From Apteryx mantelli (lineage: Eukaryota > Chordata > Aves > Apterygiformes > Apterygidae): 64,000 nt of DNA. Shown here piece by piece: positions 866-53,900 of the stretch. Under the pieces are notes generated by a model, which saw nothing but the letters and a program-made list of their open reading frames with translations, was not told the DNA's origin and did no database searches. The stretch lies in NCBI RefSeq assembly GCF_036417845.1, contig NC_090014.1:248001-312000 (forward strand). The letters run 5' to 3'. Position numbers and translations under genes: made by a program. The stretch's first letter is position 1. Each line of letters opens with the position of its first letter.

Positions 866-3800
866 GGCCGCCGCCGGCGGGGCTGCGGGCGGTGCTGGGC
901 CGCGAGGGCCCGGCGGGCTTCGCGCGGGCGGTGCGGGCGCACCGCGGGCTGCTGCTCACCGACACGACGTTCCGCGACGCCCACCAGTCGCTGCTGGCGA
1001 CGCGCGTGCGCAGCCGCGACCTCAAGCGCGTCGCCCCCTTCGTGGCGCACGCCTTCAGCGGCCTCTTCAGCATCGAGAACTGGGGCGGTGAGCCGCCGCC
1101 GCCCTCGTGCCGCGCGGGGGGCGGGGCTTGCACGGCGGGGGGCGGGGCTTGCACGAGGAAGGGGGCGGGGCTTGCACCGGGACACAGAGGTTTGCACCGG
1201 GAGGGGGGTTGCACCAGGGGACGGGGGTTGCATGGGGGACAGTGGATGTGGGGTGTGCACGAGGGGGTGGGGCTTGCAATAGGTGGGCGGGGCTTTCACC
1301 AGGGGCGGGGCTTGCACGAGGCAGGGGGCGGGGCTTGCACCAGGGCACGGAGCTTTGCACCGGGAGGGGGAGGGGGAGTTGCACCAGGGGATGGGGGTTG
1401 CGTGGGGGACATGGTGGATGTGGGGTGTGCACAAGGGGGAGGGGCTTGCACGAGTTGGGCGGGGCTTGCACCATGGGCGGGGCTTGCACGAGGCAGGGGG
1501 CGGGGCTTTCACGAGGCAGGGGCGGGGCTTGCACCAGGGCAGTTAAGGGTCGCACCAAGGTGGAGGATTGCCCCGGGGTAGGGTGGACGTGGGGGTGTGC
1601 ACAAAGGGGGGCGGGGCTTGCACGAGGTGGGTGGGGCTTGCATGAGGTGTGGGGCGGGGCTTGCACGAGACAGGGGGCGGGGCTTTCACGAGGCAGGGGC
1701 GGGGCTTGCACCGGGGCAGTTAAGGGTCGCACCAAGGTGGAGGATTGCCCCGGGGTAGGGTGGACATGGGGTGCGCACAAAGGGGGGCGGGGCTTGCACG
1801 AGGTGGGTGGGGCTTGCAGGAGATGTGAGGGCAGGGATTGCACTAGAGGGGGCGGGGCTTGCACGAGACAGGGGGGCGGGGCTTGCATGAGACAGGTGGG
1901 CGGGGCTTGCACCAAGCAAACAAGGTTTGTGGGGGGGGGGTGAGTCGCACCGGGATGGGGGGGGGGGGTTGCACCAGGGGACGGTGGCTGCGGGGGCGTG
2001 CACCGGGGGTGGGCGGGGCTTGCGCGAGACAAGGGGGCGGGGCTTGCGCGAGACAGGGGGCGGGGCTTGCACCAAGCCCCCCCCCCCCGACGCTGCCCCC
2101 CCCCCCTTGCCGCCCGCAGGCGCCACCTTCGACGTGGCCATGCGCTTCCTGCACGAGTGCCCCTGGCAGCGGCTGCGCGACCTGCGCCAGCTCATCCCCA
2201 ACGTCCCCTTCCAGATGCTGCTGCGCGGCGCCAACGCCGTCGGCTACACCAACTACCCCGACAACGTCGTCTACCGGTGCGGGGGCGACACCGCGGGGGG
2301 ACACGGGGGGGGACACAGGGACATGCGGACGCGGGGGGACACGGGGGGACACGGGGCGCCAACGCCGTCGGCTACACCAACTACCCCGACAACGTCGTCT
2401 ACCGGTGCGGGGGCGACACCGCGGGGGGGGACACCGGGGGGGACACGGGGACATGCGGACGCGGGGGGACACGGGGGGACACGGGGCGCCAACGCCGTCG
2501 GCTACACCAACTACCCCGACAACGTCGTCTACCAGTGCGGGGGGACACCGGGGGGGGGCGACACCGCGGGGGGGACACCGGGGGGGACACGGGGACATGC
2601 GGACGCGGGGGGACACGGGGGGACACGGGGCGCCAACGCCGTCGGCTACACCAACTACCCCGACAACGTCGTCTACCGGTGCGGGGGCGACGCCGGGGGG
2701 GGGGGGACACCGGGGGGGACACGGGGACACGGGGGGACACAGGGCACCGACGCCGTTGGCTGCACTGACCCCTGCATGCCCCCGTGACCCCCCCGCTGAC
2801 CCCAGCGCACCCCCGTGACCCCTGCGTCCCCCGTGACCCCAGTGTGCCCCCATGACCCCCCGCTGCCCCTGCTGCCCCCACCAACCCCTGCTGACCCAGC
2901 GTGCCCCCATGACCCCCCACTGACCCCTGTGCACCCTGTGACCCCCTGCTGCCCCATGACCCCCCGCTGACCCTGCTGACCCTTGTGTGCCCCCGTGACC
3001 CCCTGCTGACCCCTGTGACCCCCTGTGACCCCCTGCTGACCCCTGTGACCTGCTGTGACCCCACTGACCCCCATGCGCCCCCGTGACCCCACTGACCCCC
3101 GTGCACCCCTGTGATCCCCCGCTGACCCCTGTGACCCCCCGTGACCCCCCGTGACCCTGCTGACCCCTGTGACCCTGCTGACCCCCTGCTGACCCCGTGA
3201 CCCTGCTGACCCCTGTGACCCCGCTGACCCCCCGCGCCCCGCCGTGCCCCCCGCACACCCCCCCGTCTGACGTTGCCCCCCGTCCCCGGGGCCCGGCGGG
3301 GTCGCTGGCGCGGCGGGGCAGGTTCTGCGAGGTGGCGGCGGCCAACGGCATGGACGTCTTCCGCGTCTTCGACTCGCTCAACTACGTGCCCAACCTGGTG
3401 CTGGGCGTGGAGGCGGCGGGGCGCGCGGGCGCCGTCGTCGAGGCCGCCATCTCCTACACGGGCGACGTGGCCGACCCGGCGCGCACCAAGTACGGCCTCG
3501 ACTACTACCTGCGCCTCGCCCGCGAGCTCGTCGCCGCCGGCACCCACATCCTCTGCATCAAGGTGCGGGGGGGGGGCTCGGGGGGGGGGGGTCTGGGGGG
3601 GGCGGTTGGGGGGTCCTGGGGGGGCGGGGAGGGGTATAGGGGGGTATTGGGAGTCCTGGGGGGTGGTTGGGGGTCCTAGGGGGCGGGGAGGGGGTATAGG
3701 GGGGTATTGGGGGTCCTGGGGGGCGGTTGGGGGTCCTGGGGAGTCGGGGAGGGGGTATAGGGGGGTATTGGGGGTCCTGGGGGGCGGTTGGGGGGTCCTG

Positions 3801-6800
3801 GGGGGGCGGGGAGGGGGTATAGGGGGGTATTGGGGGTCCTGGGGGGGTTTGGGGGTCCTGGGGGGGTGGGGAGGGGGTATAGGGGGGTATTGGGGTCCTG
3901 GGGGGGCGGGGAGGGGGTAGAGGGGGGTATTGGGGGTCCTGGGGGGGGGTTGGGGGGTCCGGGGGGGGTGGGGAGGGGATATAGGGGGGTATTGGGGGTC
4001 CTGGGGGGGGTTGGGGGGTCTGGGGGGGCGGGGAGGGGGTATAGGGGGGTATTGGGGGTCCTGGGGGGGCGGGGAGGGGGTAGAGGGGGGTATTGGGGGT
4101 CCTGGGGGGGGGTTGGGGGGTCCTGGGGGGGGTGGGGAGGGGATATAGGGGGGTATTGGGGGTCCTGGGGGGGCGGTTGGGGGGTCCTGGGGGGGTATTG
4201 GGGGTCCTGGGGGGCGGTTGGGGGGTCTGGGGGGGCGGGGAGGGGGTATGGGGGGTATTGGGGGTCCTGGGGGGCGGTTGGGGGTCTGGGGGGTCGGGGG
4301 GAGGGGTATGGGGGGTATTGGGGGGTCCTGGGGGGGCGGGGAGGGGGTATGGGGGGTATTGGGAGTCCTGGGGGGGGGTTGGGGGGTCCTGGGGGGGCGG
4401 GGAGGGGGTATAGGGGTGTATTGGGGGTCCTGGGGGGGCGGTTGGGGGGTCCTGGGGGGGCGGGGAGGGGGTATAGGGGGGGGTATGGGGGTCCTGGGGG
4501 GGGTGGGGAGGGGATATAGGGGGGTATTGGGGGTCCTGGGGGGGCGGTTGGGGGGTCCTGGGGGGGCGGGGAGGGGGTATGGGGGGGTATTGGGGGTCCT
4601 GGGGGGCGGGGGAGGTATAGGGGGGTATTGGGGTCCTGGGGGGGGTTGGGGGGTCCTGGGGGAGGTTGGGGGTCCTGGGGGGCGGGAGGGGGTATGGGGG
4701 GGTATTGGGGGTCTGGGGGGAGGGTTGGGGTCCTAGGGGGGCGGGGAGGGGGTATGGGGGGTATTGGGGTGCAGAGAGGGGGATCGGGGGATGAGGAGGA
4801 GGTTTAGGGGTTATTGGGGTGCAGAGAGGGGGATTCGGGGTGCAGGGAGGGGGATTTGGGGTGCAGGTAGGGGGATTTGGGGTCCCTGGGGTACCGGGAG
4901 GGGGATTCGGGTGCAGGGAGGGGAATTGGGGTGCAGGGAGGGGGATTTGGGGTGCAGGTAGGGGGATTTGGGGTCCCTGGGGTACCGGGAGGGGGATTTG
5001 GGGTGCAGGGAGGGGATTTGGGGTGCAGGGAGGGGGATGTGGGGGCCCTGGGGTACCCGGAGGAGGATTTGGGGTACCCGGAGGGGGATTTGGGGTGCAG
5101 GGAGGGGATTTGGGGTGCAGGGAGGGGGATGTGGGTCCCTGGGGTACCCGGAGGAGGATTTGGGGTGCCGGGAGGGGGATTTGGGGTGCAGGGAGGGGAT
5201 TTGGGGTGCAGGTAGGGGGATTTTGGGGGTCCCTGGGGTACCAGGAAGGGCGAATTGGGTTCCCTGGGGTACCAGGAGGAGGATTTGGGGTGCAGGGAGG
5301 GACATTTGGGGGTTCCTGGGGTGCAGGAAGGGCGATTTGAGGGTCCCTGGTGGAGGGGGATTTGGGGCGCAGAGAGGGGGATTTGGGGTGCGGAGAGGGG
5401 GATTTGGGGTGCAGGGAGTGGGATTTGGGGTCCCTGGGGTGCAGGGAGGGGGATTTGGGGCGCAGAGAGGGGGATTTGGGGGTCCCTGGGGTACCCGGAG
5501 GGGGATTTGGGGTGCAGGGAGGGGGATTTGGGGTCCCTGGGGTACCTGGAGGGGGATTTGGGGCGCAGAGAGGGGGATTTGGGGTCCCTGGGGTACCGGA
5601 GGGGAATTGGGGTGCAGGAAGAGGGATTTGGGGTCCCTGGGGTACCGGGAGGGGATTTGGGGTGCAGGAAGAGGGATTTGGGGTCCCTGGGGTACCCGGA
5701 GGGGGATTTGGGGTGCAGAGAGGGGGATTTGGGGTCCCTGGGGTACCGGGAGGGGAATTGGGTGCAGGAAGAGGGATTTGGGGTCCCTGAGGTACCGGGA
5801 GGGGATTTGGGGTGCAGGAAGAGGGATTTGGGGTCCCTGGGGTACCCGGAGGGGATTTGGGGCGCAGAGAGGGGATTTGGGGTCCCTGGGGTACCAGGAG
5901 GGGGATTGGGGTGCAGGAAGAGGGATTTGGGGTGCCGGGAGGGGATTTGGGGTGCAGGAAGGGGGATGTGGGGTCCCTGGGGTACCTGGAGGGGATTTGG
6001 GGTGCAGGGAGGGGATTGGGGGTCCCTGGGGTGCAGGAAGGGCGATTTGGGGTACCCGGAGGAGGATTTGGGGTGCAGGGAGGGGAATTGGGGTGCAGGG
6101 AGGGGGATTTGGGATTCAGGGAGGAGGATTTGGGGTTCCCTGGGGTACCCGGAGGGGATTTGGGGTGCAGGTAGGGGGATTTGGGGTGCAGGGAGGGGGA
6201 TGTGGGGTCCCTGGGGTACCTGGAGGGGGATTTGGGGTGCAGAGAGTGGGATTTGGGGTGCAGGAAGGGCAATTTGGGGTGTGGAGAGGGGAATTTGGGG
6301 TGCAGGGAGGGGGATGTGGGGTCCCTGGGGTACCGGGAGGGGGATTTGGGGTGCCGGGAGGGGATGTGGGGTCCCTGGGGTGCAGGAAGAGGGGTTTGGG
6401 GTGCCGGGAGGGGGATTTGGGGTGCAGAGAGGGGGATGTGGGGTCCCTGGGGTACCGGGAGGGGGATTTGGGGTGCCGGGAGGGATGTGGGGTCCCTGGG
6501 GTGCAGGAAGAGGGGTTTGGGGTGCCGGGAGGGGGATTTGGGGTGCAGGGAGGGGGATGTGGGGTCCCTGGGGTACCCGGAGGGGGATTTGGGGTGCAGG
6601 GAGGGGATTTGGGGTCCCTGGGGTACCGGGAGGGGATTTGGGGTGCCGGGAGGGGATGTGGGGTCCCTGGGGTGCAGGAAGAGGGGTTTGGGTACCCGGA
6701 GGGGGATTTGGGTGCAGAGAGGGGGATGTGGGGTCCCTGGGGTACCCGGAGGGGATTTGGGGTGCAGGGAGGGGGATGTGGGGTGCAGGGAGGGGGATGT

Positions 6801-9800
6801 GGGGTCCCTGGGGTACCCGGAGGGGGATTTGGGGTGCCGGGAGGGATGTGGGGTCCCTGGGGTACCCGGAGGGGGATTTGGGGTGCAGGGAGGGGGATGT
6901 GGGGTCCCTGGGGTACCCGGAGGGGGATTTGGGGTGCAGGGAGGGGGATGTGGGGTCCCTGGGGTACCCGGAGGGGGATTTGGGGTGCAGGGAGGGGGAT
7001 GTGGGGTCCCTGGGGTACCCGGAGGGGGATTTGGGTGCAGGAGGGGGATGTGGGGTCCCTGGGGTACCCGGAGGGGGATTTGGGGTGCAGGAAGGGCAAT
7101 TTGGGGTGCGGAGAGGGGGATTTGGGGTGCCGGGAGGGGATGTGGGGTCCCTGGGGCGCAGGAAGAGGGGTTTGGGGTACCCGGAGGGGGATTTGGGGTG
7201 CAGAGAGGGGGATGTGGGGTCCCTGGGGTACCCGGAGGGGGATTTGGGTGCAGGGAGGGGGATTTGGGGTTCAGGGAGGAGGATTTGGGGTCCCTGGGGT
7301 ACCCGGAGGGACATTTGGGGTGCGGAGAGGGGGATTTGGGGGTCCCTGGGGTACCAGGAAGGGCGAATTGGGTTCCCTGGGGTACCTGGAGGGGATTTGG
7401 GGTGCCGGGAGGGGGATTTGGGGTGCCAGGAGGGGATTCAGGGTGCTGGGAGGGACAATTGGGGTGCAGGGAGGGGATGTGGGGTCCCTGGGGTACCCGG
7501 AGGGGGATTTGGGGTACCGGGAGGGGATTTGGGGTGCCGGGAGGGGGATTGGGGGTCCCTGGGCGCAGGAAGAGGGGTGTGGGGTACCCGGAGGAGGACT
7601 CGGGGCGCCGGGCGGGAGGCCCGGGGGCGGCGGGTGACGCGGCCGCCGCGCAGGACATGGCCGGGCTGCTGACGCCGGAGGCGGCGCGGCTGCTGGTGGG
7701 GGCCCTGCGGCAGCGCTTCCCCGAGCTGCCGCTGCACGTGCACAGCCACGACACGGCCGGCGCCGCCGTGGCCTCCATGCTGGCCGCCGCCGCCGCCGGC
7801 GCCGACGTGGTCGACGTGGCCGTCGACGCCATGGCCGGCATGACCTCGCAGCCCAGCATGGGCGCCCTCGTCGCCTGCGCCCGCGGCACCCCCCACGACA
7901 CCGGTAGGCCCCCGCCGCCGCCACTGCCGCCGCCATGCCACGGCCATGCCACGGCCACGCCGACATCGCCACGGCCATGCCACGGCGACGGCAGCAACGC
8001 CATGGCAACACCACCACCACCACGGCGATGCTGACAGCGCCACGGTGATGCCACGGCCATGGAAGCATGGCCACGGCAACGCCAACGTTGCCACGGCCAT
8101 GCCGACATCGCCACGGTGGTGCCACGGTGATGGCAGCACCGCCACGGCAACGCCAACATTGCCACAGTGATGCCAACATCACCATGCTGATGCCACGGCA
8201 ACAGCAGCGCTGCCACGGCAACGCTAACATTGCCACGGCAATGCCAACATCACCATGGTGATGCCACGGCAATGCCAACATTGCCATGGCAACACCAACA
8301 TTGCCACGGTGATGCCAACATTGCCACGGTGATGCCAACATTGCCACGGTGATGCCACGGCGACGGCAGCGCTGCCATGGCAACGCCAACATTGCCATGG
8401 TGATGCCAACATCACCATGGTGATGCCACGGCAATGCCAACATTGCCATGGCAACGCCAACATTGCCACGGTGATGCCACGGCGACGGCAGCACTGCCAC
8501 GGCAATGCCAACGTTGCCACAGTGATGCCAACATCACCATGGTGATGCCACGGCAATGCCAACATCGCCATGGTGATGCCATGGCAACACCAACAGCACC
8601 ACGGTGATGCCAACATCACCACGGTGATGCCACGGCAACACCAACATTGCCACGGTGATGCCAACATCGCCACGGCCATGCCATGGCGACGGCAGTGCTG
8701 CCACGGCAACGCCAACATTGCCACGGCGATGCCGATATCACCATGGTGATACCACGGCCATGGCAGCATGGCCACAGCAACGCCAACATTGCCACGGCGA
8801 CGCCAATGCTACTACGGCAACGCCATGGCGATGGCAGCACCACCGAGGTGATGCCAACATCACCATGGCAACGCTGTGGCAATGCCAACGTTGCCGTGGC
8901 GATGCTGCGGCGATGGCAGCACCTCCGCGGCAGTGTCAACGTTGCCAATGCCACCATGGTGACGCCATGGCGATGGCGGCACTGCCACGGCGACCCCGAT
9001 GTTGCCATGGCGATGCTACAGCGATGGCATCACCGCCATGGTGGCACCACCGTTGGCATGGTGATGCCACGGTGACGGCAACACTGCCATGGTGGCCCCA
9101 CTGTTGCCATGGCGATGCCAGCGCTGCCACAGCAATGCCGTGGCAACGCCAACACCTCCGGGTGCCCATTCCTGGGGTCCCGGTCCCCGAGGTCCCCATG
9201 GTCCCCATCCCTGTCACCAGGGTCTCCACGGTCCCTGTCCCTGGGTCCCCATCCCTGGACTCCCTCGTCCTTGAGGTCCCTGTCCCTGGGTCCCCATCCC
9301 TCACCCCCAGGGTCTCCGTGGTCCCTGTCCCCAGGGTCCCTGATCCCTGAGATCCCTGTCCCCATCCCCGTGGTCCCCATGGTCCCCGGTCCCACGTGTG
9401 CCCCCCTGGCAGCAGGCACCACGCTGGAGCAGGTGTTCGAGTACAGCCCCCATGTCCCCGTCCCCGTCCCTGTCCCCGTGGTCCCTGTGGTCCTCATGGT
9501 CCCCATGGTCCCTGTGGTCCTCATGGTCCCCATCCCCATGATCCCTATGGTCCCCGTGGTCCTCATGGTCCCCATCCCCATGGTTGCCATCCCTGTGGTC
9601 CCCATGGTCCCCGTGGTCCTCATGGTCCCTGTGGTCCCCATGGTCCCTGTGGTCCTCATGGTCACCATCCCCACGGTCACCATCCCTGTGGTCCCCATGG
9701 CCCTCGTGGTCCCCATGGTCCCCGTGGTCCCCATGGTCCCTGTGGTCCTCATGGTCCCCGTGGTCCTCATGGTCCCTGTGGTCCTCGTGGTCCTGGTCCT

Positions 9801-12800
9801 CATGGTCACCATCCCCACGGTCGCCATCCCGTGGTCCCCGTGGTCCCTGTGGTCCTCATGGTCCCCGTGGTCCCCATGGTCCCTGTGGTCCTCATGGTCA
9901 CCATCCCCACGGTCGCCATCCCCGTGGTCCCCATGGCCCTCGTGGTCCCCATGGTCCTTGTGGTCCCCATCCCCGTGGTCCCCATGGTCCTTGTGGTCCC
10001 CATGGTCCCTGTGGTCCTCATGGTCCCCATCCCCATGGTTGCCATCCCCGTGGTCCCCATGGTCCTCATGGTCCCTGTGGTCCCCATGGTCCCCGTGGTC
10101 CTTACGGTCCTTGTGGTCCCCATGGTCCCTGTGGTCCTCATGGTCCCCATCCCTGTGGTCTCCATGGTCCTTGTGGTCCCCATCCCGTGGTCCCCATGGT
10201 CCCTGTGGTCCCGTGGTCCTCATGGTCCCCATGGTCCCCGTGGTCCCTGTGCTCCCCGTGGTCCTCATGGTCCCCATCCCTGTGGTCGCCATCCCTGTGG
10301 TCCCCATGGTCCCCGTGGTCCTCATGGTCCCCATCCCCATGGTTGCCATCCTGTGGTCCCCATGGTCCCTGTGGTCCTCATGGTCCCCATCCCCATGATC
10401 CCCATGGTCCCCATGGTCCTCATGGTCCCTGTGGTCCTCGTGGTCCTGGTCCTCATGGTCACCATCCCACGGTCGCCATCCCCATGGTCCCCGTGGTCCC
10501 CGTGGTCCTCATGGTCCCTGTGGTCCTCATGGTCACCATCCCTGTGGTCCTCATGGTCCTGGTCCTCATGGTCACCATCCCCATGGTCGCCATCCCTGTG
10601 GTCCCCATGGTCCCCGTGGTCCTCATGGTCCCCATCCCCATGGTTGCCATCCCTGTGGTCCCCATGGTCCCTGTGGTCCTCATGGTCCCCATCCCCATGA
10701 TCCCCATGGTCCCCATGGTCCTCATGGTCCCTGTGGTCCTCGTGGTCCTGGTCCTCATGGTCACCATCCCCACGGTCGCCATCCCCATGGTCCCCGTGGT
10801 CCCCGTGGTCCTCATGGTCCCTGTGGTCCTCATGGTCACCATCCCCACGGTCGCCATCCCCGTGGTCCTCATGGTCCCCGTGGTCCCCATGGTCCTTGTG
10901 GTCCCCATGGTCCTTGTGGTCCCCATCCCCGTGGTCCCCATGGTCCTCATGGTCACCATCCCCACGGTCCCCATCCCTGTGGTCTCCGTGGTCCTCATGG
11001 TCCCTGTGGTCCCCATGGTCCCCGTGGTCCTCATGGTCCCTGTGGTCCCCATGGTCCCCGCGGTCCCCGCGGTCCCGGCGTCCCGGCGTCCCCGGTCCCA
11101 CGTGTGTCCCCCGTCCCCCCCCGGCGGCGGCAGGCATCGCGCTGGAGCGGGTGTTCGAGTACAGTGAGTACTGGGAGGCGGCGCGGGGTCTCTACGCCGC
11201 CTTCGACTGCACGGCCACCATGAAGTCGGGCAACGCGGACGTCTTCGAGAACGAGATCCCGGGCGGGCAGTACACCAACCTCCACTTCCAGGCCCACAGC
11301 ATGGGGCTGGGCCACAAGTTCAAGGAGGTGAAGAAGGCCTACGCCGAGGCCAACAAGATCCTCGGGGACCTCATCAAGGTGGGGACGCCGGCGCCGCGCT
11401 GCGCTGCGCCGGGGGGTGCTGGAGGGGGGGGACGTCACCATGGGGCAGGTCCTCATGGCGCAGGTCCCCATGGGGCAGGTCACTATGGGGCTGGTCCTCA
11501 TGGGCAGGTCCCCATGGGGCTTCTCTGGGGGGGAACGTCCCCATGGGGCAGGTCCTCATGGCGCAGGTCCCCATGGGTCTGGTCCTTCTGGGGAATGTCC
11601 CCATGGGGCATCTCTGGGGGGAACGTCCCCATGGGGCAGGTCCTTCTGGGGAATGTCCCCATGGGGCAGGTCACTATGGGGCTGGTCCTCATGGGCAGGT
11701 CCCCATGGGGCATCTCTGGGGGGGAACGTCCCCATGGGGCAGGTCCTTCTGGGGAAGGTCCTCATGGCGCAGGTCCCCACGGGGCAGGTCCTCATGGGCA
11801 GGTCCCCATGGGGCATCTCTGGGGGGAACGTCCCCATGGGGCAGGTCCTTCTGGGGAAGGTCCCCACGGGGCAGGTCCCCATGGGGCAGGTCCTTCTGGG
11901 GAAGTTCCCCATGGCGCAGGTCCCCATGGGGCAGGTCCTTCTGGGGAAGGTCCTCATGGGGCAGGTCTCCATGGGGCAGATCCTGTGTGGCAGGTCCCAA
12001 GGCTGTGGTGACACCGTGGGGCAGGTCTGGGTGGTGCGGTGCCACCATGGGGCAGGTCCCAATGCATTGGTGACACCGTGGGGCAGGTCTGGGTGGTGCG
12101 GTGCCACCATGGGGCAGGTCCCAATGCATTGGTGACACCATGGGGCAGGTCCTGATGCATCGGTGACACCATGGGGCAGGTCCGGGTGTCACGGTGACCC
12201 CGCGGGGCAGGTCCGGGTGTCATGGTGACCCCATGGGGCAGGTCCGGGTGTCACGGTGACGCCGCGGGGCAGGACCAGGTGTCACGGTGACGCCGCGGGG
12301 CAGGTCCGGGTGTCACGGTGACGCCGCGGGGCAGGTCCGGGTGTCACGGTGACGCCGCGGGGCAGGTCCGGGTGTCACGGTGACCCCGCGGGGCAGGTCC
12401 GGGTGTCACGGTGACGCCGCGGGGCAGGTCCGGGTGTCACGGTGACGCCGCGGGGCAGGTCCGGGTGTCACGGTGAGCCCGCGGGGCAGGTCTGGGTGTC
12501 ACGGTGAGCCCGCGGGGCAGGTCCGGGTGTCACAGTGACCCCGCGGGGCAGGTCCGGGTGTCACAGTGACCCCGCGGGGCAGGTCCGGGTGTCACGGTGA
12601 CCCCGTGGGGCAGGTCCGGGTGTCACGGTGAGCCCGTGGGGCAGGTCCGGGTGTCACGGTGCCACCATGGGGCAGGTCCAGGTGTCACGGTGACGCCGCG
12701 GGGCAGGTCCGGGTGTCACGGTGACGCCGCGGGGCAGGTCCGGGTGTCACAGTGACCCCGCGGGGCAGGTCCGGGTGTCACGGTGAGCCCGTGGGGCAGG

Positions 12801-15800
12801 TCCGGGTGTCACGGTGCCACCATGGGGCAGGTCCAGGTGTCACGGTGACGCCGCGGGGCAGGTCCGGGTGTCACGGTGACGCCGCGGGGCAGGCCCCGGC
12901 GCGGCGGTGACGCGGTGGTGCGCAGGTGACGCCGTCGTCGAAGATCGTGGGCGACCTGGCGCAGTTCATGGTGCAGAACGGGCTGTCGCGGGCCGAGGTG
13001 GAGGCGCGGGCGGACGAGCTCTCCTTCCCCCGCTCCGTGGTGGAGTTCCTGCAGGGCCACATCGGCACCCCGCCGGGGGGCTTCCCCGAGCCCTTCCGCT
13101 CCCGGGTGCGTGCCGGGGCGCCGGGAGGCACTGGGGGCACTGGGAGTGACTGGGAAGCACTGGAGGCACTGGGAGGCACTGGGAGGGGACTGGGGGGCAC
13201 TGGAGGCACTGGGAGGCACTGGGAGGGGACTGGGAGGGGACTGGGAGGGGACTGGGGGGCACTGGGGGGCACTGGGAGGGCACTGGGAGTGACTGGGAGG
13301 CACTGGGGGACACTGGGAGGGGACTGGAGGGGACTGGGGGGCACTGGGAGGGGGCTGGGGGGCACTGGGGGGCACTGGGAGGGGACTGGGAGGGGACTGG
13401 GGGGCACTGGGGGGCACTTGGGACTGGGAAGGGACTGGGAAGCACTGGGAGGCACTGGGAGGGGACTGGGGGGCACTGGGAGGCACTGGGAGGCACTGGG
13501 AGGGGACTGGGGGGCACTGGGAGGCACTGGGAGGCACTGGGAGGGGACCGGGGGGCACTGGGAGGCACTGGGAGGGGACTGGGAGGGGACTGGGGGGCAC
13601 TGGGAGGCACTGGGAGGGGACTGGGGGGCACTGGGAGGGGACTGGGAGGGGACTGGGGGGCACTGGGGGGCACTGGGAGGCACTGGGAGGGCACTGGGAA
13701 GGGACTGGGAGGCACAGGGAGGGCACTGGGGGGGAACTGGGAGGGCACTGGGAGTGACTGGGGGGCACTGGGAGGCACTGGGAGGGGACTGGGAGGGGAC
13801 TGGGGGGCACTGGGAGGGCACTGGGAGTGACTGGGAGGCACTGGGGGACACTGGGAGGGGACTGGGAGGGGACTGGGGGGCACTGGGGGGCACTGGGAGG
13901 GGACTGGGGGGCACTGGGGGGCACTGGGAGGGCACTGGGGGGCACTGGGAGGCACTGGGAGGGCACTGGGGAGCACCCATCCCTTAGCAATGGGGTTGCC
14001 AGGGGCACCATCTCCCTAGCAACGGGGCACCTGGGGTTGCCGGGGTCACCCATCCCTTAGCAACGGGGTTGCCGGGGGCACCAGGTCCCTAGCAACGGGG
14101 CACCTGGGGTTGCCAGGGACACCCGTCCCTTAGCAACGGGGCTGCCGGGGGCGCTGGCTCCCTAGCAACAGGGCGACTGGGGTTGCCGGGGACACCCGTC
14201 CCTTAGCGAGGGGGTTGCTGGGGGCACGATCTCCCTAGAAACGGGGCACCTGGGGTTGCTGGGGGCACCTGGGGTTGCCGGGGACACCCATCCCTTAGCA
14301 ACGGGGTTGCCGGGGGCACCAGGTCCCTAGCAACGGGGCACCTGGGGTTGCCAGGGACACCCATCCCTTAGTGACAGGGTTGCCAGGGTCACCATCTCCC
14401 TAGCAATGGGGCATCTGAGGTTGCTGGGGGCACCTGGGGTTGTCGGAGACACCCGTCCCTTAGCGAGGGGGTTGCCGGGGGCGCTGGCTCCCTAGCAACA
14501 GGGCACCTGGGGTTGCCGGCGTCACCCGTTCCTTAGCAACGGGGCTGCTGGGGGTGCTGGCTCCCTAGCAACAGGGCACCTGGGGTTGCCAGGGGCACCC
14601 GTTCCTTAGCAACGGGGTTGCCGGGGGGCACCAGGTCCCTAGCAACGGGGCACCTGGGGTTGCCGGGGTCACCCATCCCTTAGCAACGGGGTTGCCGGGG
14701 GCACCAGGTCCCTAGCAACGGGGCACCTGGGGTTGCTGGGGGCACCCATCCCTTAGCGACAGGGTTGCCGGGGGTGCTGGCTCCCTAGCAACGGAGCACC
14801 TGGGGTTGCCGGGGTCACCCATCCCTTAGCGATGGGGTTGCCGGGGGCACCTGGGGTTGCCAGGGACACCCGTCCCCCTAGCGCTGGGCCCCTCCGCCGG
14901 CGCGGGGGGCCGTCGGCGACGGTGGCGGGCGCCCGCAGGTGCTGAAGGACCTGCCGCGGGTGGAGGGGCGCCCGGGCGCCTCGCTGCCGCCGCTGGACTT
15001 CGAGGCGCTGGGCCAGGAGCTGGCGGCGCGGCACGGGGCGCCGCCGGGCCCCGAGGAGCTGCTCTCGGCCGCCATGTACCCCAAGGTGTACGACGACTTC
15101 CGCGACTTCACCGCCGCCTTCGGCCCCGTCGACTGCCTCGGCACCCGCCTCTTCCTCGAGGGGCCCAAGATCGCCGAGGAGTTTGAGGTGGGCGGGGCTT
15201 GTGGGGGCGGGGCTTGTGGGGAGGGGGCGGGGCTGGGAGGGGATGGAGCCAGGGGGTGGCTTGGGGAGGGGCGGGGCTTGGGGAGGGGCAGGGCTTGGGG
15301 ATGGCTGGGGTGGGGTGGTCAGCTGGGGGCGGGGCTTCACGGGGCTGGGGCGGGGCTTAGGCAGGGGTGGGGCTTGTGGGTGCTGGGATACTGCTTGGGT
15401 AGGGGGTGGGGCTTGTGACCTCAGGGGTGGGGCTTAGAAAGGGGCGGAGCTTGTAGGAGTGGAGCTTGGGTGGGTCTTGGGGGTCTGGAGGAGAGCGAGG
15501 GGAAGGGGAGGGGCCTGGGGTCTGTGGCGGGGCTTGTGGGGTCTGGGCGGGGCTCCTGGGGAGGAGCCAAAGGGGGCGTGGCTTAGAGGGGGGCTTGCCA
15601 GAGGGAGGAGCCAAAGCGATAGGGCAGGGCCGAGGAGGCGGAGCCAACAATGAGGAGGAGGGGCCACGGCGGTGGGTGGGGTCGTGGGCGGAGCTCCAGG
15701 GAGGGCACTGCCAGAGAGGGGTGGGGCCAAGGCGAGTGGGCGGGGCTAATTGTGTGTGCGGGGTGGGGAGGGGGGGCTGCACGCTGCGCTCTCGCCCACC

Positions 15801-22602: not shown

Positions 22603-30079
<7,477 letters not shown>

Positions 30080-34625: not shown

Positions 34626-34660
34626 GCACCTTCCTCCCCCCCCACTCCTGCGCGGCCGCC

Positions 34661-36862: not shown

Positions 36863-37062
36863 NNNNNNNNNNNNNNNNNNNNNNNNNNNNNNNNNNNNNN
36901 NNNNNNNNNNNNNNNNNNNNNNNNNNNNNNNNNNNNNNNNNNNNNNNNNNNNNNNNNNNNNNNNNNNNNNNNNNNNNNNNNNNNNNNNNNNNNNNNNNNN
37001 NNNNNNNNNNNNNNNNNNNNNNNNNNNNNNNNNNNNNNNNNNNNNNNNNNNNNNNNNNNNNN
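36863..37062. other. Assembly gap (200 N)
   Basis: Exactly 200 N, a typical placeholder for a gap of unknown size. It separates an unfinished AP5B1 exon from an internal RELA intron, so the true gap must contain at least the AP5B1 end and the RELA 5' exons. Confidence 0.97.
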
Positions 37063-40105: not shown

Positions 40106-40109
40106 GCGG

Positions 40110-41437: not shown

Positions 41438-41529
41438 CGATCAAACGCCGCCCCGGACGCCTGGGTCCTTTCGGAAGGGGGAGGGGGGGAGGGGAGGGGG
41501 GGGAACCCGGTCGCCTGGGCCCCGCGGGG

Positions 41530-41827: not shown

Positions 41828-44800
41828 ATGCCGAGCAAGAAGAAGAAATACAACGCGCGGTTCCCGCCGGTGAGGAGCGACAGGGAACCGGGCGGGAGGG
41901 CGGGTGGGGGGGGGGGGAGCCGGGCCTCCACTTCCGCCGGGGCCTCCAGGTCTCCATGGCAACCGCTGGGGGGGGGCGGAAGGGCCTCGCTCCTCCCTCC
42001 CTCCCCCCCAATGGATCCCGCCTCCCCCTCAGGTGCAGGGAGGGGGCGTGGCTGGGAGGGAGGTGGGCGTGGCTGGAGGCGGGGCGGGGCCTCCCCTCAG
42101 GTTTGCCTCGGGAGGCGCCCGGGGGCGGGGCCAGGGCGGGGCCAAGGAGAGGGGTGGGGCCTTCTTCCTCCCCCTTCCCTTCAGATGGCTCTGGGGGGGC
42201 GGGGCCAGGGAGAGGGGGCGGGGCTGCGCCCTCAGGCTCAGGGGCCTCGCGGGGGCGGGGCCTAGAGGAGGGGCGGGGCTTGTACGGGGCAGGGCCAGTC
42301 ACCAGGGCGGGGCCAGGGCTCCCTCTGTGTTTCCAGCCCTGGCTTAAAAGGTTGTGGGGGGGGAGGAGGCGCTTGCTTGGGGGCGTGGCCTCACGGAGGG
42401 GCGTGGTCTGTTGGGGGCGGGGCCTCCCCTGGGGCGGGGCCTGAGGGTGCATCCCGCAGGCGCGCATCAAGAAGATCATGCAGACGGACGAGGAGATCGG
42501 CAAGGTGGCGGCCGCCGTCCCCCGTCATCATCTGTATCCTGCGCCCGGACGCCTGGGTCCCCCCGGGGGCGGGGGGGGGTGGGGTGGGGGGTCCCCCGGA
42601 TGCCTGGGTTCCTTTGGGAGCCGCCCCCCAGACGCCTGGGCCCCCCGGACGCCTGGGTCCCTCGGGAGGTGACAGGTCCTGCGGGAGGGTCCCGGACGCC
42701 TGGGCCCCCCGGACACCTGGGTCCCTCGGGAGGTGGCGGGTCCCTTGGGAGGGTCCCGGCCACCTGGGCCCCCCGGATGCCTGGGCCCCCCGGACACCTG
42801 GGTCCCTCGGGAGGTGGCGGGTCCCGCGGGAGGGTCCCGGATGCCTGGGCCCCCTGGACACCTGGGTCCCTTGGGAGGTGACAGGTCCTGCGGGAGGGTC
42901 CCGGACGCCTGGGCCCCCCGGACACCTGGGTCCCTCGGGAGGTGGCGGGTCCCTTGGGAGGGTCCCGGCCGCCTGGGCCCCCCGGATGCCTGGGCCCCCC
43001 GGACACCTGGGTCCCTCGGGAGGTGGCGGGTCCCGCGGGAGGGTCCCGGATGCCTGGGCCCCCTGGACACCTGGGTCCCTCGGGAGGTGACAGGTCCCTC
43101 GGGAGGGTCCCGGACGCCTGGGCCCCCCCGCCCCCGGGGTCCTTAGCGGGCGGCGCAGCGCGGGCGCTCGAGCTCTTCCTGGAGTCGCTGCTGCGCAAGG
43201 CCTGTCACGTCACGCAGTCGCGCAACGCCAAGACCATGACCACGTCCCACCTGTGAGCGCCCGGACGCCGGGGCCCCCCGGGGCGCGGGGGGGGGGAGGG
43301 CGGGGGCTGCCCGGATGCCTGGACCCCCCTGGGGGATGGAGGAGGGATCCCTGGACGCCTGGGCCCCTCAGACGCCTGGGTCCCTTCCCCGCTCTGCGGT
43401 GCCTCAGTTTCCCTTTTTGCCCTGAGGACCCAGGGGAGGGGGTGGGGCTTAGCCTGGGGGTGGGGCTTAGCCTGGGGGTGGGGCCTATCCAGGAGAGTGG
43501 GGCTTAATCAGGGTGGGGCCGTAGGGCTGGTTGGGAGGGGAAGTGGGGTAGAACCTAGTCCAGGGGGTGCGGCTTAGACAAGGGGTGGAGCTTGTATGGG
43601 GTGGGGCTTAGGGGGTGTGGCTTAGCCAGGGGGTGGGGCTGGGGCCTGGTCTGGGTGAGAGGGGGAGCTGGGACTGGGGGTCAGGTAGGGGGTGGAGCCT
43701 AGTCTAGGGGGTGGGGCTTAGCCTGGAGGTGGAGCTTGTGTAGGGGGTGGGGCTTAACCGGGGGTGGGGCTGGGGGCCTGGTCTGGGTGGGAGGAGGAGC
43801 TGGGAGTGGGGGCCAGGTGGGGGTGGGGCTTAGTCCCAGGGGGTGGAGCCTAATCTGGGGGTGGGGCTTAGCCAGGGGGTGGGGCTTAGCCAGGGGGCGG
43901 GGCTGGGATCTGGCCTGGTTGGGAGAAAGAGCTGGGACTGGGAGGCGGGAGAGGGTGGGGCCTGACCCAGGGGGGTGGGGCCTGATCTGAGGGGGAGGAG
44001 CCTGGTCAGGGGTGGGGCCTGGCTTAGGGGGTGTGGCCTAACGAAGCCCCACCCCTCCAGGAAGCAGTGCATCGAGCTGGAGCAGCAGTTCGACTTCCTC
44101 AAGGATCTGGTGGCGGCGGTGCCCGACATGCAGGGGGAGGGCGAGGAGGCGGCGGGCGAGGGCGAGCGGCCCCCCCCGCAGGTGAGCCGGACGCCTGGGC
44201 CCCTTCCCCGGACGCCTGGGCCCCTGCCCCGGACACCTGGGCCCCCAGGGGCGGGTGCGGGGACCGTGGGGGTGCCCGGACGCCTGGGCCCCTCCCGGAC
44301 GCCTGGGTCCCTCGCGCAGGGGCCGCCGCCCGGGCGCAGGCCGCAGGAACGGGGGTCCCGGCGCCAAGGGCAAAGACCCCAAACAGTCGGGAACCGACTC
44401 GGAGCAGGAGGTGAGGCGGGCCCGGACGCCTGGGCCCCTCCGGGGGGGGGAGGGATCGGGCTCCCCCGGACGCCTGGGCCCCTCTGGGGGTGGGATTGGG
44501 CCCCCCGGACACCTGGGTCCCTCATGGGGGTGGGATCAGCCCCCCCCCCCGGATGCCTGGGCCCCTCCACGGGGGGGATCGGACCCCCCCCGGATGCCTG
44601 GGCCCCTCCACGGGGGAGATCAGACCCCCCCGGATGCCTGGGCCCCTCTGGGGGTGGGATCAGACCCCCCCGGATGCCTGGGCCCCTCTGGGGGTGGGAT
44701 CGGACCCTCCCGGACACCTGGGCCCCTTTGGGGGAGGGATGCCCCCCCCCCCGGATGCCTGGGTCCCTCATGGGGGGTGGGATCGGACCCTCCCGGATGC

Positions 44801-46295: not shown

Positions 46296-46301
46296 AATAA
46301 A
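46296..46301 (+). terminator. Poly-A signal of DRAP1
   Basis: AATAAA in CCTCAATAAAAGTCGC, about 280 bp after the DRAP1 stop. Confidence 0.82.
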
Positions 46302-46439
46302 AGTCGCAGTTTCAATAGAAACGGGAGGTGCCGGCGCCCGGACGCCTGGGTCCCCTGGGGGCGGGGCCGCCCGGACGCCTGGGTCCCCTGGGGGCGGGGC
46401 CGCCCGGACGCCTGGGCCCTTCCCCCTCCCCCCCCCGCG

Positions 46440-46660
46440 CTGCCCCTATGGAGCGTCTGCGACTCGGCGCTGCGCATGCGCGCTGGGAGGGGGCGTGGCC
46501 TGGCCGCCGAGGGGCGGGGCTAGGGCCGCGCGGGGCTCCGCCCTTCCCGGCAGCAGCGGGCGGTGTCTGCGCATGCGCGTTGCCCCCCCTTCCCCGGCGG
46601 CTGCTGCGCGGAGCCGCGGCCGCCAGAGGGCAGCAGAGACCCGGAGGGGCCGCCGGGGGC
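46440..46660. promoter_or_regulatory. CpG-rich patch with two NRF1-type sites, no assigned gene
   Basis: CTGCGCATGCGCGC near 46469 and CTGCGCATGCGCGT near 46568 both contain GCGCATGCGC-type NRF1 cores. GGGGGCGTGGCC and GGGGCGGGGC elements lie between them. It sits just after DRAP1, before the 62-bp satellite. No coding exon is attached. Confidence 0.4.
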
Positions 46661-47960: not shown

Positions 47961-48059
47961 AGCGGGGGGGTGGGGGGGCCGGGGCGGGCCCAGGCGTCCG
48001 GGCGTCGGGCCCGGCTCCCCGCGGCGCTGGAATCCCTGCGGCCCCCCCGCCCCCCCCCC

Positions 48060-48221
48060 CTCGTTAATCCCTTCCCGGCGCCGGTGAAACTTCAACCAAA
48101 CGAGCCGCTCGCGCCCTCATATAAGGGGCCGCGCGGGGACGGGGGACGGCCAGCGCCACCACCCCGGGGACGGGGACGGGGACGGGGACAGCGCCGGGGC
48201 CCCCGGCCCCCCCCAGCCCAG
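48060..48221 (+). promoter_or_regulatory. Promoter and probable non-coding first exon of the first SLC22 gene
   Basis: CATATAAGG TATA box at 48118-48126, AACCAAACG at 48094-48102 and GTTAAT at 48063-48068. A start site about 30 bp after the TATA box would give a short leader ending at a CAG/GTACCC donor (GT at 48222). That would splice to the acceptor at 50976-50978, just before the ATG. Core layout matches the second SLC22 gene. Confidence 0.6.
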
Positions 48222-48239
48222 GTACCCCCCGGCCCCGCG

Positions 48240-49450
48240 CCAACGACGGGGACGGGGTTGGGGACATCGACGAAGAGTTGGGGACATCGGCGAAGGGTTG
48301 GGGACATCAGCAAAGGGTTGGGGACATCGACGAAGGATTGGGGATGTCGGTGAAGGATTGGGGACATCAGCAAAGGGTTGGGGACATCGGCAAAGGGTTG
48401 GGGACATCGACAAAGGATTGGGGATATCAGCAAAGGGTTGGGGACATCAGCGAATGGTTGAGGACATCAGCAAAGGGTTGGGGACATGGGCAGGGGGACG
48501 GGGACCCTGTGGGGGGACGGGGACCGGGACGGGTTGGGGACATCCAGGAGGAGATGGGGACCGGGACAGGTTGGGGACCTCAGCAAAGGGTTGGGGACGT
48601 CGGCCAGGGGACGTAGGAACGAACTGGGGACCCTTGGGGACATCGGCAAGGGGACGGGGACACCTCAGGCGAGACGGGGACCAGGACAGATTGGGGACCT
48701 CAGCGAAGGGTTGGGGACATCGGCTAGGGGACACAGGGACGAGCTGGGGACATCCAGGAGGGTATGGGGACCAGGAGCCCTTGGGGACATCAGCAAGGGG
48801 ATGGGGACAGGTTGGGGACGTTGGTGAGGGGACACGAGGACGAATTGGGGACATCGAGGAGGGGACGGAGCCCAGGGGAGGTTGGGGACCTCGGCCAAGA
48901 GTTGGGGACGTCGATGAGAAGACACAGCAACTAATTGGGGACATGGAAGAGGAGACGGGCACCAGGGACCCTTGGGGACATCGGCAAGGAGATGGGGACA
49001 CTTGGGGGGAGGGGGACCAAGACAGGTTGGGGACATCGGTGGGGGGACACAGGGACAAACTGGGGACATCGAGGAGAGGATGGAGCCTGGGGGAGGTTGG
49101 GGACCTCAGCAAAGGGTTGGGGACATCAGTGGGGGGGGACACAGGGACGAACTAGGGACATCGAGGAGAGGATGGAGCCTGGGGACCCCAGCGAAGGTTG
49201 GGGACATCGGCCAAGGGGGATGAACTGGGGACATCCAGGAGGGGGCCGGGGACCAGGATGGGTTGGGGACATCAGAGAGGGGACACAGGGACATCCAGGA
49301 GGATCCAGACACAGGTTGGGGACACTGAGGAGGTGACGGGGGACACGGGGATGAATTGGGGGACATCGATGACATTTTGGGGACATCGAGGAGGGGGACA
49401 GGGCCCAGGACGGGTTGGGGACGTGCTGAGACATCGGGGAGGGGACGGGG
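48240..49450. repeat. GGTTGGGGACATCGGCAAAG minisatellite, SLC22 gene 1 leader intron
   Basis: About 45 copies of a ~24-bp unit (GGGTTGGGGACATCGGCAAA) that grade into larger GGACAGGTTGGGGACCTCAG units. Confidence 0.85.
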
Positions 49451-49659
49451 ACCGTCACCTCGGGGCCATCGGCGCCGCAGCTGGCCGGATGTCCCTGTCC
49501 CCGGGGAGCCGGGACGGGGTGGGGACGGGACAGGGGCCACCAGGGAGGGGACAGGGGCTGGGACATGCCAGGGACATCGGGGAGGGGACACTGGGGAGGG
49601 GACAGGGACACTGGGGAGGGGACAGGGACACTGGGCAGGGCTGGTGCCACCATCGCCGA

Positions 49660-50825
49660 GCCGTGTCCCCTGCCGGCCCCATCCCCGTGTCCCCCCCCCG
49701 TGTCCCTGCAGTCTCCATCCCTGTGTCCCCCCCCCCCGTGTCCCCACGGTCCCCACATCCCCGTGTCCATGTCCGGGTCCCCATCCTGGTGCTCACGTCT
49801 GCGTCTGACCCGTGTCCCTGCCGTCCCTGTGTCCCTGCCGTCCCTGTGTCCCTGTCCCCGTGTCCCTGTCCCTGTGTCCCTGTCCCCGTGTCCCTGCGGT
49901 GGTGGCAGTGTGGTCCCCATGTCCCCATGTCCTGGTGGTGACAACCGTGTCCCCAGGGCAGGATGAGCTTCGCGGTGATGCTGGTGCAGGTGGGCGGTGC
50001 AGAGCCCCATGTCCCCCATGTCCCTCCATATCCTCCCATGTCCCCGTGTCCCCCACATCCCATCTCCTCCCATGTCCCCCATGTCCCCCGTATCCCCCAT
50101 GTCCCCCCGTGTCCCCCATATCCCCCATGTCCTCCATGTCCCTTGTGTCCCTCATGTCCTCCATGTCCCTCGTGTCCTCCATGTCCCCCCATGTCCCCCC
50201 GTGTCCCCCATATCCCCCATGTCCTCCATGTCCCTTGTGTCCCTCATGTCCCTCGTGTCCTCCATGTCCCCCCATGTCTCTCGTGTTCTCCATGTCCACC
50301 ATGTCCTCCGTGTCCTCCATGTCTCTCATGTCCCCCATGTCTCTCATGTCCACCATGTCCTCCATGTCCCCCATGTCCCCCATGTCCCTCCATGTCCCCG
50401 TGTTCCTCCATGTCCCTCCATGAACCTCCATGTCCCCCATGTCCCTTGTGTCCCCCATGTCCCTCCATGTCCCCCATGTCCCCCATGTCCCTCCATGTCC
50501 CCCATGTCCCCCCATGTCCCCCATGTCCCTCCATGTCCCTCCATGTCCCTCCATGTCCCCCATGTCCCCCCATGTCCCCCATGTCCCTCCATGTCCCTCC
50601 ATGTCCCCATGTTCCTCCATGTCCCTCCATGAACCTCCATGTCCCCCATGTCCCTTGTGTCCTCCATGTCCCCCATGTCCCTCATGTTCTCCATATCCAC
50701 CATGTCCCCCATGTCCCCCATATCCTCCTTGTCCCTCATGTCCTCCATGTCCTCCATGTCCCCCATGTCCCCATGTCCCCCATGTCCTCCACGTCCCCCA
50801 TGTCCCCCACGTCCCCCGCGTCCCG
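49660..50825. repeat. CCCCATGTCCCTCCATGTCC minisatellite
   Basis: 9- to 12-bp ATGTCCCCC and ATGTCCCTCC units. It contains and surrounds the extra copies of the first coding exon's start. Intronic or intergenic; no independent gene. Confidence 0.83.
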
Positions 50826-50930
50826 GCGGTGACGGCCGTGTCCCCGGGCAGGATGAGCTTCGCGGCGGTGCTGGAGCAGGTGGGCGGCGCGGGGCCCCAT
50901 GTCCTCCATGTCCCTCCACGTCCCCCATGT
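49940..50930 (+). pseudogene. Two extra copies of the start-codon exon edge of SLC22 gene 1
   Basis: The acceptor and start GGCAGGATGAGCTTCGCGG occur at the real exon (ATG 50980) and also with ATG at 49963 and 50853. The 50853 copy is identical through GTGCTGGAGCAGGTGGGCGG and shares upstream CCCGGCGGTGACGGCCGTG, at a spacing of 127 bp. The 49963 copy is more diverged (TTCGCGGTGATGCTGGTG). Both then run into minisatellite. Confidence 0.88.
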
Positions 50931-50979
50931 CCCCCACGTCCCCCGCGTCCCGGCGGTGACGGCCGTGTCCCCGGGCAGG

Positions 50980-53900
50980 ATGAGCTTCGCGGCGGTGCTG
51001 GAGCAGGTGGGCGGCGCGGGGCGCTTCCAGGCGCTGCACACGGCGCTGCTGGTGCTGCCGCTGCTGCTCATGGCCAGCCACAACCTGCTGCAGAACTTCA
51101 CGGCGGCGGTGCCGCCCCACCGCTGCCGCCCGCCGGCCGCCCCCAACGGCACCCTGCGCGCGGGCCCCAACGGCACCCTGGGCGCGGCGCTGCCCGAGCC
51201 GGGGCCCTGCCGGCGCTACGCGGCGCCCGGCGCCGACGGCGCGGCCAACGCCACCGAGCCCTGCCGCGACGGCTGGGACTACGACCGCAGCGTCTACGTG
51301 GCCACCATCGTCTCCGAGGTGGGGACGGGCTGGGCGGAGGCGGAGGGGTGGAGGGATGGAGAGGCGGAACGGTGGAGATGGAGGGATGGGGATGGAGGAA
51401 TGGAGATGGAGGGATGGAGCGATGGAGCAGTGGAGGGATGGAGAGGCGGAAGGATGGAGATGGAGGGATGGGGATGGAGATGGAGGAATGGAGATGGAGC
51501 GATGGAGCGATGGAGCAGCGGAGGCATGGAGAGGTGGAAGGGTGGAGATGGGAAGTTGGAAGGATGGAGATGGTGAGATGGAGGAATGGAGATGGCGGAA
51601 TGGAGATGGATGGGTGAAGATGGAGCTGTAGGGGGATGGAAAGACGGAGGAATGGAGATAGAGATGGAGGGATGGAGCAATGGAGCAATGGAGGCATGGA
51701 GAGGTGGAAGGATGGAGAAGGGCAGATGGAGGGATGGAGATGGTGAGATGGAGGGATGGAAATGGAGATGGAGGGATGGAGCAATGGAGGTGGATGGATG
51801 GAGAGGTGGAAGGATGGAGATGGGAAGATGGAGGGATAGAGATGGTGAGATGGAGGAATGGAGATGGAGGGATGGAGATGGATGGGTGAAGATGGAGCTG
51901 TAGGGGGATGGAAAGATGGAGGGATGGAGATGGAGATGGAGGGATGGAGATGGAGATGGATGAGTGAAGATGGAGCTGTAGGGAGATGGAAAGATGGAGG
52001 AATGGAGATGGTGAGCTTAAGATGAGGAATGGTGGGATGGAGATGGAGCTGTATGGTGGTGGAGGTAGAGGGATGATGGAGGGATGGAGATGGTGAGATG
52101 GAGGAATGAAGATGGAGAGATGGAGATGGATGAGTGAAGATGGAGCTGTAGGGGAATGGCAGGATGGAGAGATGGAGATGGTGAGCTTAAGATGAGGAAT
52201 GGAGGGATGGAGGTGGAGCTGTACGGGGATGGAGGGATGGAGGTAGAGGGGTGATGCAGGGACGGAGTTGGAGAGGCTGAAACAGGGATGGAGCTGTCTG
52301 GGGTGGAGGGACAGACGAGATGAAGGTTCGGGTAAGGATCAACTAGATGGAGGAAGAACGGGATGAGAGGAAGGAGGGAGGGCTGGAGAGCGAGAACCGG
52401 GGGTGGGTAGAGGGATGGAAGGTGGGGAAGGATGGAGAGGGATGGGCAGAGTGGGCGGACGGAAGGACGGAGAGAAAACGCTGTACGGAGGTGGACGGAT
52501 GGATGGAGGCTGGAGATGGATGAATGGAGACAGGGCCGGGTGGACGGAGGGGGGGCCGCCTGGACACCCCCGATCCCGTCCTCACCCCGTCCCCGTCCCT
52601 CCCCGCAGTGGGACCTGGTCTGCAGCTACCGGCAGCTGCGGCAGATGGCCCAGTCCATCTACATGGCCGGGGTCCTCGTGGGCGCCCTGGTCCTGGGCAA
52701 CCTCTCGGACAGGTAGGAGCAGCCAGGCCCCGCCGTGCCTCGGTTTCCCCATTGGGATGCTGGCCAGCTGCCTCCCAGTGGCTCCCAGTGGCTCCCAGTG
52801 GCCTCCTGGTTGCAGGTTCGGGCGCAAGGCCATGCTGATGTGGTCCTACCTGCTGCTGGGGGCGATGGGCACGTGCACGGCCTTCGCCCCCAACTACGCG
52901 GCCTACTGCGTCTTCCGCTTCGCCAGCGGCATGGCCCTCTCCGGCTTCGGCCTCAGCGTCGCCTGCCTGGGTGAGGTCGGCCGCGGTGACTGGGGTGGCT
53001 GTGGGGGTGGCCCTGTGGCCGTGGATGGGGAGAAGTCCATGGCCGTGGGTGGGAATGTGCCAATGGCCGTAGATGGAGACATCACACTTGCCATGGATGG
53101 GGACATCCTAATGGCCATGGATGAGGGCATCCCAGTGACCATGGATGGGGACATCCCAGTGACTGTGGATGGGGACAACATCATGGCCATGGATGGGGAC
53201 ATCCTAATGGCCTTGGATGGGGACAGCCCAATGGCCATGGATAGGGACATCCCAGTGACTGTGGATGGGGACAACATCATGGCCATGGATGGGGACATCC
53301 CAGTGACCATGGATGGGGACAACACCATGGCCATGGATGGGGACATCCCAGTGACCATGGATGGGGACAACCCCATGACCATGGATGGGGACATCCTAGT
53401 GGCCATGCATGGGGGACAACTCCATGACCATGGATGGGGACAACCCCATGGCCATGAATGGGGACATCCCAGTGGCCATGGACGAGGACATCCCAATGTC
53501 CATGGACGAGGACATGCCATGGGGACATGTCCGGACACGGCGGCGCCACATGCGCGAGGAGGGTCCCAGAGGGGGAAACCGAGTCACCCGCGGGTGCCGC
53601 GGCGCTTCCTTGCAGTGGTGGAGTGGATCCCCACGCCCTACCGCGCCATCACCGTGGCCATCACCGGCTTCGCCTACACCCTGGGCCAGATCCTGCTGGC
53701 CGGCATGGCCTACGCCATCCCCCACTGGCGCCGGCTCCAGCTCTCCGTCTCCCTGCCCTTCTTCTTCTTCCTCCTCTACTCCTGGTAGGGGCGTCCCGGA
53801 CGCCTGGGTCCCTTCGGGAGGGGTGGGGGTGGAGTGGGGCCCTCCTCCCTGGGGGGGGCAGTGGGGCGTGTGGGGCTCTCATCCCACCTTGCACCGCCCC

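Follow-up and report, generated by a model that had tools for sequence, protein, structure and literature searches.

How do the edges of exons, splice sites included, come to be repeated in the introns beside them? The question is raised by a stretch of 64,000 nucleotides of the genome of the bird Apteryx mantelli (hereafter ‘the window’; positions 248001–312000 of contig NC_090014.1, here called C37, 776,894 bp). A preliminary description of this stretch reported that four exon borders (a donor and an acceptor of the pyruvate carboxylase gene, PC, and one acceptor each in OVOL1 and an SLC22 gene) had been copied into neighbouring arrays with their splice dinucleotides, and direct copies are indeed present at all four, that at OVOL1 being weaker (13 exonic bases plus AG). 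The same description knew of no name for such cases as a class. On this point it has to be corrected: the copies belong to a class that has been named exon stuttering in chicken (Hron et al. 2026; PMC12954441) and mirages in amphioxus (Ebner et al. 2010; PMC3087553).

With the screen settings of Hron et al. (blastn-short without dust filtering, a length of at least 20 and at least 42.1 bits), we searched 45 exons against 40 introns and 5′ flanks, all delimited by reading the sequence of PC, OVOL1, AP5B1, RELA, DRAP1, and two SLC22 genes. Six matches pass, each of them in the intron or flank adjacent to its own exon; none is distal and none antisense. Their sources sit at exon borders (exon ranges 108–157 of 157, 1–36, and 1–44). 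A comparison with shuffled controls, which the preliminary description had proposed, comes out in favour of the copies: five intron shuffles peak at 30.2–34.2 bits vs 42.1–99.6 bits for the real matches. A second, border-wise test looked in the adjacent intron for AG or GT plus the exact adjoining exonic bases at 78 borders. Three borders reach at least 7 bases (50 at PC, 44 at SLC22, and 13 at OVOL1), and the other 75 share at most 6 bases each; the PC acceptor fails here because of its mismatches. Exon edges swapped into other introns reach up to 10 bases and shuffles up to 9 (among the 16 rows listed), so short matches do arise by chance. Exact repeats that cross the border measure 74 bp at the PC donor (PC_b; 50 bp exonic), 84 bp at SLC22 (44 exonic), and 16 bp at OVOL1 (13 exonic).

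Three copies stand behind the PC exon at 2120–2276 (window coordinates, plus strand), the last 50 bases of which (2227–2276) form the copied donor edge. The first copy, at 2355–2404 (50 bp, 100%, 99.6 bits), is followed by GT and the start of the intron, with its donor at 2405. In the second, at 2485–2533 (49 bp, 100%, 97.6 bits), the last exonic base is A rather than G and the GT is kept at 2535; the third, at 2629–2678 (50 bp, 100%, 99.6 bits), has its donor at 2679. Unit lengths are 128, 130, and 144 bp, and each unit spans from the exonic GGCGCCAACGCC through the donor into G-rich intron. By-eye reading adds, unscored, a probable older, decayed copy of the edge without a donor at 2742–2774 (plus strand).

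At the PC acceptor, the edge of the exon at 11134–11378 (plus strand; edge 11134–11164) recurs at 9416–9446 on the same strand, with CAG kept and 28 of 31 exonic bases in agreement. The match found by the screen (9422–9446) lies exactly at the 42.1-bit threshold and begins at exon base 7, the agreement itself running from base 1. This copy is 1718 bp upstream of its source, and an array of GTCCCCGTG, with another unit, fills 1.6 kb in between (9472–11076).

The first coding exon of the SLC22A6-like gene carries its acceptor edge and start codon at 50979–51022 (plus strand). An identical copy lies at 50852–50895 (44 bp, 100%, 87.7 bits) and a more diverged one at 49962–49997 (36 bp, 91.7%, 48.1 bits), both on the plus strand and both with AG and ATG kept. 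Relative to the true start codon, the ATG of the nearer copy, 127 bp upstream, is out of frame; judged by distance, that of the farther copy, 1017 bp upstream, is in frame.

The acceptor edge of OVOL1 exon 2 (26444–26456, minus strand, 13 exonic bases) is repeated in an array at 26520–27116 on the same strand, ten units of which have an AG/TCTGCC border; every TCTGCC in this intron is preceded by AG (10/10). AGTCTGCC occurs 11 times on the OVOL1 strand of the window, in the exon and the ten array units, and not once on the other strand. Within this intron, neither swapped exon edges nor 200 dinucleotide shuffles exceed 6 bases vs the real 13. As just 13 exonic bases are common to source and copies, OVOL1 stays below the threshold of the chicken screen, which the PC donor, the PC acceptor, and the SLC22 acceptor all reach, and it was admitted on the border-wise test only.

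Two further candidates did not stand. The preliminary description had added a 31-bp array before PC exon 6 (12007–12893, plus strand) as sharing the start of that exon, and this much is correct: GGTGACGCCG, present in ten 31-bp units, has ten bases in common with the exon start, including its first nine. The array shares GGTGACGCCG only, without the splice AG, and AG plus the exon start was found 0 times in it, so we reject exon 6 as a border capture; the ten-mer may be a chance similarity. A 19-bp exact repeat in the interior of a RELA exon was set aside as low complexity from its location in a region of G and C runs. In the window, 4 of the 40 introns and flanks have an exon-edge relation. 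Weaker similarities (28–42 bits) number 3 proximal vs 46 distal, and without a clear proximal excess, the arrays in general seem not to be exon-derived.

The pattern extends beyond the window. The 10 kb immediately upstream (L082; C37:238001–248000) hold seven further PC exons, three of which have edge copies. In L082 coordinates, 11 exonic bases preceded by AG occur in three copies in an acceptor array at 2072–2700 (PCu4), and at two of these copies the likeness extends to about 40 bp of intron; a second acceptor array at 3866–4147 (PCu5) contains two copies of 31 exonic bases; and a donor array at 8951–9690 (PCu7), behind the exon at 8861–8950, contains 14 copies spaced about 52 bp apart. 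The exact repeats crossing these borders measure 26 bp (11 exonic), 60 bp (31 exonic), and 55 bp (15 exonic), respectively. On another small contig, C35, the end of a MARK4 exon, approximately its last 60 bases, is part of a 72-bp unit (L075, C35:329800–332100; positions 1227–1576); the array gives an 86-bp match at 84.9%, and donors are intact in three of four copies. In total, direct copies adjacent to their own exon, with splice dinucleotides, are found at seven C37 borders (five of PC, one of OVOL1, and one of SLC22) and one C35 border (MARK4).

The assembly comprises 1.504 Gb in 408 contigs, of which C1 has at least 221 Mb and C36, C37, C38, and C41 have less than 1.5 Mb each. From its size and content, C37 looks like a dot chromosome: guanine–cytosine (GC) content is 0.60–0.78 throughout the window, Tandem Repeats Finder (TRF) arrays cover 62.6% of it and 82.6% of the 10 kb upstream, and minisatellite makes up most of the intron sequence. 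For large contigs, we examined 58 exon matches of two Pfam families (from the best 30 of 132 and the best 30 of 141 matches); edge copies were found at 0 of these 58, and median TRF cover was 0. The sample from small contigs (C31–C41) consisted of 21 exon matches of three families, 2 from the control lists and 19 hand-picked from 132, 141, and 159 matches; the family PF00083, with 13 matches, none on small contigs, was not used. Compared with the large contigs, L082, which belongs to the gene of two window cases, is enriched (3/7 vs 0/58; Fisher p 0.0008), and so is the set of all C37 exons (7/52 vs 0/58; Fisher p 0.004). These data support recurrence on C37 and presence on C35; an excess on dot chromosomes is not proven by this sample alone. 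The recurrence and the general process in a GC-rich chromosome that the preliminary description had proposed are supported, with three more cases in L082; an excess on small contigs as a class is unproven in this sample (1/21 vs 0/58).

What produces the copies? In our reading, to which we give a probability of roughly four in five, they are border-spanning tandem duplications, a by-product of minisatellite turnover that is tolerated since the original exon stays intact. An array that abuts an exon would expand over the border and take along between 11 and about 60 exonic bases with the splice dinucleotide; the array would probably have come first and the exon edge second. A duplication across a single border would keep both the full original exon and its original splice partner, and selection need not remove such a copy, whereas duplications inside an exon would be purged. 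The copies would afterwards decay, or re-amplify along with the array. Splicing may survive through exon definition, a decoy edge being one without the rest of its exon. As the duplication route, replication slippage, which the preliminary description had suggested, is a candidate on a par with unequal exchange and gene conversion.

A dispersed minisatellite core makes a strictly local origin of the arrays harder to uphold. In the window (26000–54000), CGGACGCCTGGG is present 83 times (53 on the plus and 30 on the minus strand, where an expected count would be about 0.05), both in intergenic sequence and in seven of the introns listed, and in L082 it is present 28 times. The 18-mer CCCGGACGCCTGGGCCCC occurs 6,462 times in the assembly (2,953 forward and 3,509 reverse), and its reversed control 0 times. 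Since the core is common to arrays in unrelated introns, not all arrays look locally born. At PCu4, the CGGACGCCTGGG core lies in the stretch that leads up to the exon and to two of its copies, beside the copied edge, which fits the order of array first and edge second; here, a widespread array core may have reached the exon and carried its edge along.

The copies carry their own substitutions and indels. Exon-side strings locate 34 copies at six borders, all of which keep AG or GT, as do three of four units at MARK4; the splice dinucleotide lies inside the copied unit, however, so its retention is no sign of selection. On average, exonic sequence is better preserved than intronic sequence in five of the eight cases (the two PC borders of the window, PC_b and PC_e, and SLC22, PCu5, and OVOL1) and less well in three (PCu7, PCu4, and MARK4), a comparison that used two of the three PCu4 copies and just 10 intronic bases at MARK4. 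Given this division, we claim no selection on the copies. Of five arrays in which two or three copies were compared, four have their greatest likeness in the nearest copy, and in the fifth (MARK4) there is a tie.

Several results weigh against the proposed explanation or limit how far it extends. A steady exon-edge source would be expected to yield a general fall of similarity with distance; this expectation was not upheld, as the two long arrays have no such trend (rho 0.02 for 14 copies and −0.26 for 10 copies). The OVOL1 copies are on average only 55% alike on the intronic side, so that case rests on about 16 bases. Small contigs yielded a single positive among 21 exon matches vs 0 of 58 on large ones (Fisher p 0.27), and the exact-repeat test gave 0 of 21. 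The large-contig control used exon matches bounded by hidden Markov models plus 1.5 kb on each side, not exact borders. The 7/52 comparison for C37 is biased because the window was picked by a reader who had seen the pattern, and L082 was taken up as the remainder of the PC gene.

How do these copies relate to what has been described elsewhere? Canestro and co-workers are said to have reported, in 2002, amphioxus Adh3 mirages that are minisatellite-like tandem duplications of exon–intron boundaries. The copies described here resemble them in that the units consist of an intron end plus an exon start, or of an exon end, at either border, and keep splice signals in many cases. The paper on amphioxus globins describes tandem repeats across exon–intron borders, credits the name mirages, used for Adh3, to Canestro et al. 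(2002), sketches a route to new introns, and considers regular splicing undisturbed (Ebner et al. 2010; PMC3087553). Lengths are also reported to be unstable there, somatically in the case of Adh3 and from one haplotype to another in that of a globin gene (PMC3087553); the present data come from a single assembly.

The chicken cases were introduced as novel under the terms sequence stuttering and exon stuttering and comprise 236 introns in 115 genes, 190 of these introns being on dot chromosomes, which account for under 4% of introns (Hron et al. 2026; PMC12954441). The source lies within one base of the border in more than 90%, the exonic parts are 20–187 bp long (median 36), splice sites are copied too, and intron lengths vary between birds (PMC12954441). 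The same source mentions some instances of local repeat expansion in other birds and, as unshown data, GC-rich gerbil genes (PMC12954441). The likeness to the copies in Apteryx mantelli is close: direct tandem copies of exon edges with the splice site in the adjacent intron, at donors as well as acceptors; exonic parts of tens of bases; and GC-rich, repeat-filled introns on what is probably a dot chromosome. PC at five borders, OVOL1, the SLC22 gene, and MARK4 are detailed new instances of the phenomenon described in chicken.

The main text of PMC12954441 contains neither the word mirage nor OVOL1, SLC22, or pyruvate carboxylase; a literature search with stuttering terms returned only Hron et al. 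(2026), and among the five papers listed by one on mirages, minisatellites, and introns, none is on birds by its title. This suggests that avian stuttering and amphioxus mirages are two literatures on one thing. A model of intron gain is already at hand from amphioxus, and with 14 near-identical donor sites behind one exon, the PC gene could serve as a test bed. In potato, an RdRp gene is reportedly a case of intron gain by tandem genomic duplication. A model of intron gain by this route is that of Rogers, as cited by Ebner et al. (PMC3087553). The shared feature is a duplication that includes splice-like sites; the difference is that a new intron is inferred there, and nothing here shows one.

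This leads to the first of the alternatives, that the decoys are used, giving alternative transcripts, with some units becoming new exons or introns as has been proposed for amphioxus mirages. Scored with a matrix built from this locus, most decoys resemble the real sites: at the PC donor, 6.9 for the real site vs 6.9, 4.1, and 6.9; at PCu5, 12.8 vs 12.8 and 12.8; and at the SLC22 acceptor, 6.6 vs 6.8 and 6.6. At MARK4, extensions by 72, 144, or 216 bp keep the frame without a stop and would add 24, 48, or 72 residues, and of the three PC donor extensions, all stop-free to the end of the next exon, those of 258 and 402 bp are in frame. The absence of stops, however, is expected because the sequence is G-rich, and frames are not generally kept: only one decoy out of 14 at PCu7 preserves the frame, and the PC donor decoy at +128 loses it. 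Moreover, 8 of 10 OVOL1 decoys score less than 2 vs 7.1 for the real site. We therefore consider use of the decoys unlikely. We consider likewise unlikely the broader proposal that border-spanning minisatellites are one recurrent chordate process in fast-turnover, GC-rich introns that occasionally gives working in-frame decoys, MARK4 being an exon in the course of gaining a coding repeat.

Could the assembler, rather than the genome, have made the copies, by falsely expanding or duplicating the consensus in GC-rich repeats? Base quality in homopolymers is doubtful, as apparent frame changes in DRAP1 exon 2 and the last RELA exon indicate, and a 200-N gap lies in the window. A second copy of the PC locus, which could have served as an independent assembly for comparison, was sought and none was found. 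Nevertheless, the copies differ from one another by their own substitutions and indels and occur at eight borders on two contigs, and in chicken, raw nanopore reads verified the general structure at PHF8, according to Hron et al. (PMC12954441). An artefact is thus improbable to a high degree. No better placed is the idea that exon edges seed the arrays, minisatellites in general beginning at exon borders. Edge copies at seven C37 borders and one C35 border are what it would lead one to expect, but most introns are without any exon relation (4/40 with one), the weak matches are 3 proximal vs 46 distal, and an array core that recurs 6,462 times across the assembly did not begin at these exons. 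Chance similarity in GC-rich, low-complexity DNA, of which the RELA 19-bp repeat, the swapped edges of up to 10 bases, and perhaps the PC exon 6 ten-mer are examples, has a negligible claim, and chance or composition is ruled out as the source of the long copies by shuffles (at most 34.2 bits vs 42.1–99.6), swaps, and the lack of antisense or distal matches.

The genes themselves were identified to different degrees. PC was confirmed by comparison with solved pyruvate carboxylases and AP5B1 with Pfam, and the first SLC22 gene is closest to SLC22A6. The names OVOL1 (minus strand), RELA, and DRAP1 are presumed from protein similarity. Pfam finds zinc fingers in the OVOL1 product and a histone-fold match in the DRAP1 product; no OVOL entry is among the best 60 matches in the OVOL1 comparison. 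A 200-N gap at 36863–37062 separates AP5B1 from RELA and hides where AP5B1 ends and how RELA begins. In the last RELA exon (window 39373–40105), conserved-looking parts are split over two frames, and DRAP1 exon 2 (window 42460–42533) reads GTCCCCCGTC where the expected protein needs one C less. These apparent frame breaks in C or G runs would be homopolymer base errors or real frameshifts. Finally, the sequence ahead of the PC exon that begins at 866 is filled, at window positions 1–812, by an array of the 11-bp unit CACATGCGATG; arrays resembling it are found on contigs C219 and C271 and elsewhere on C37.

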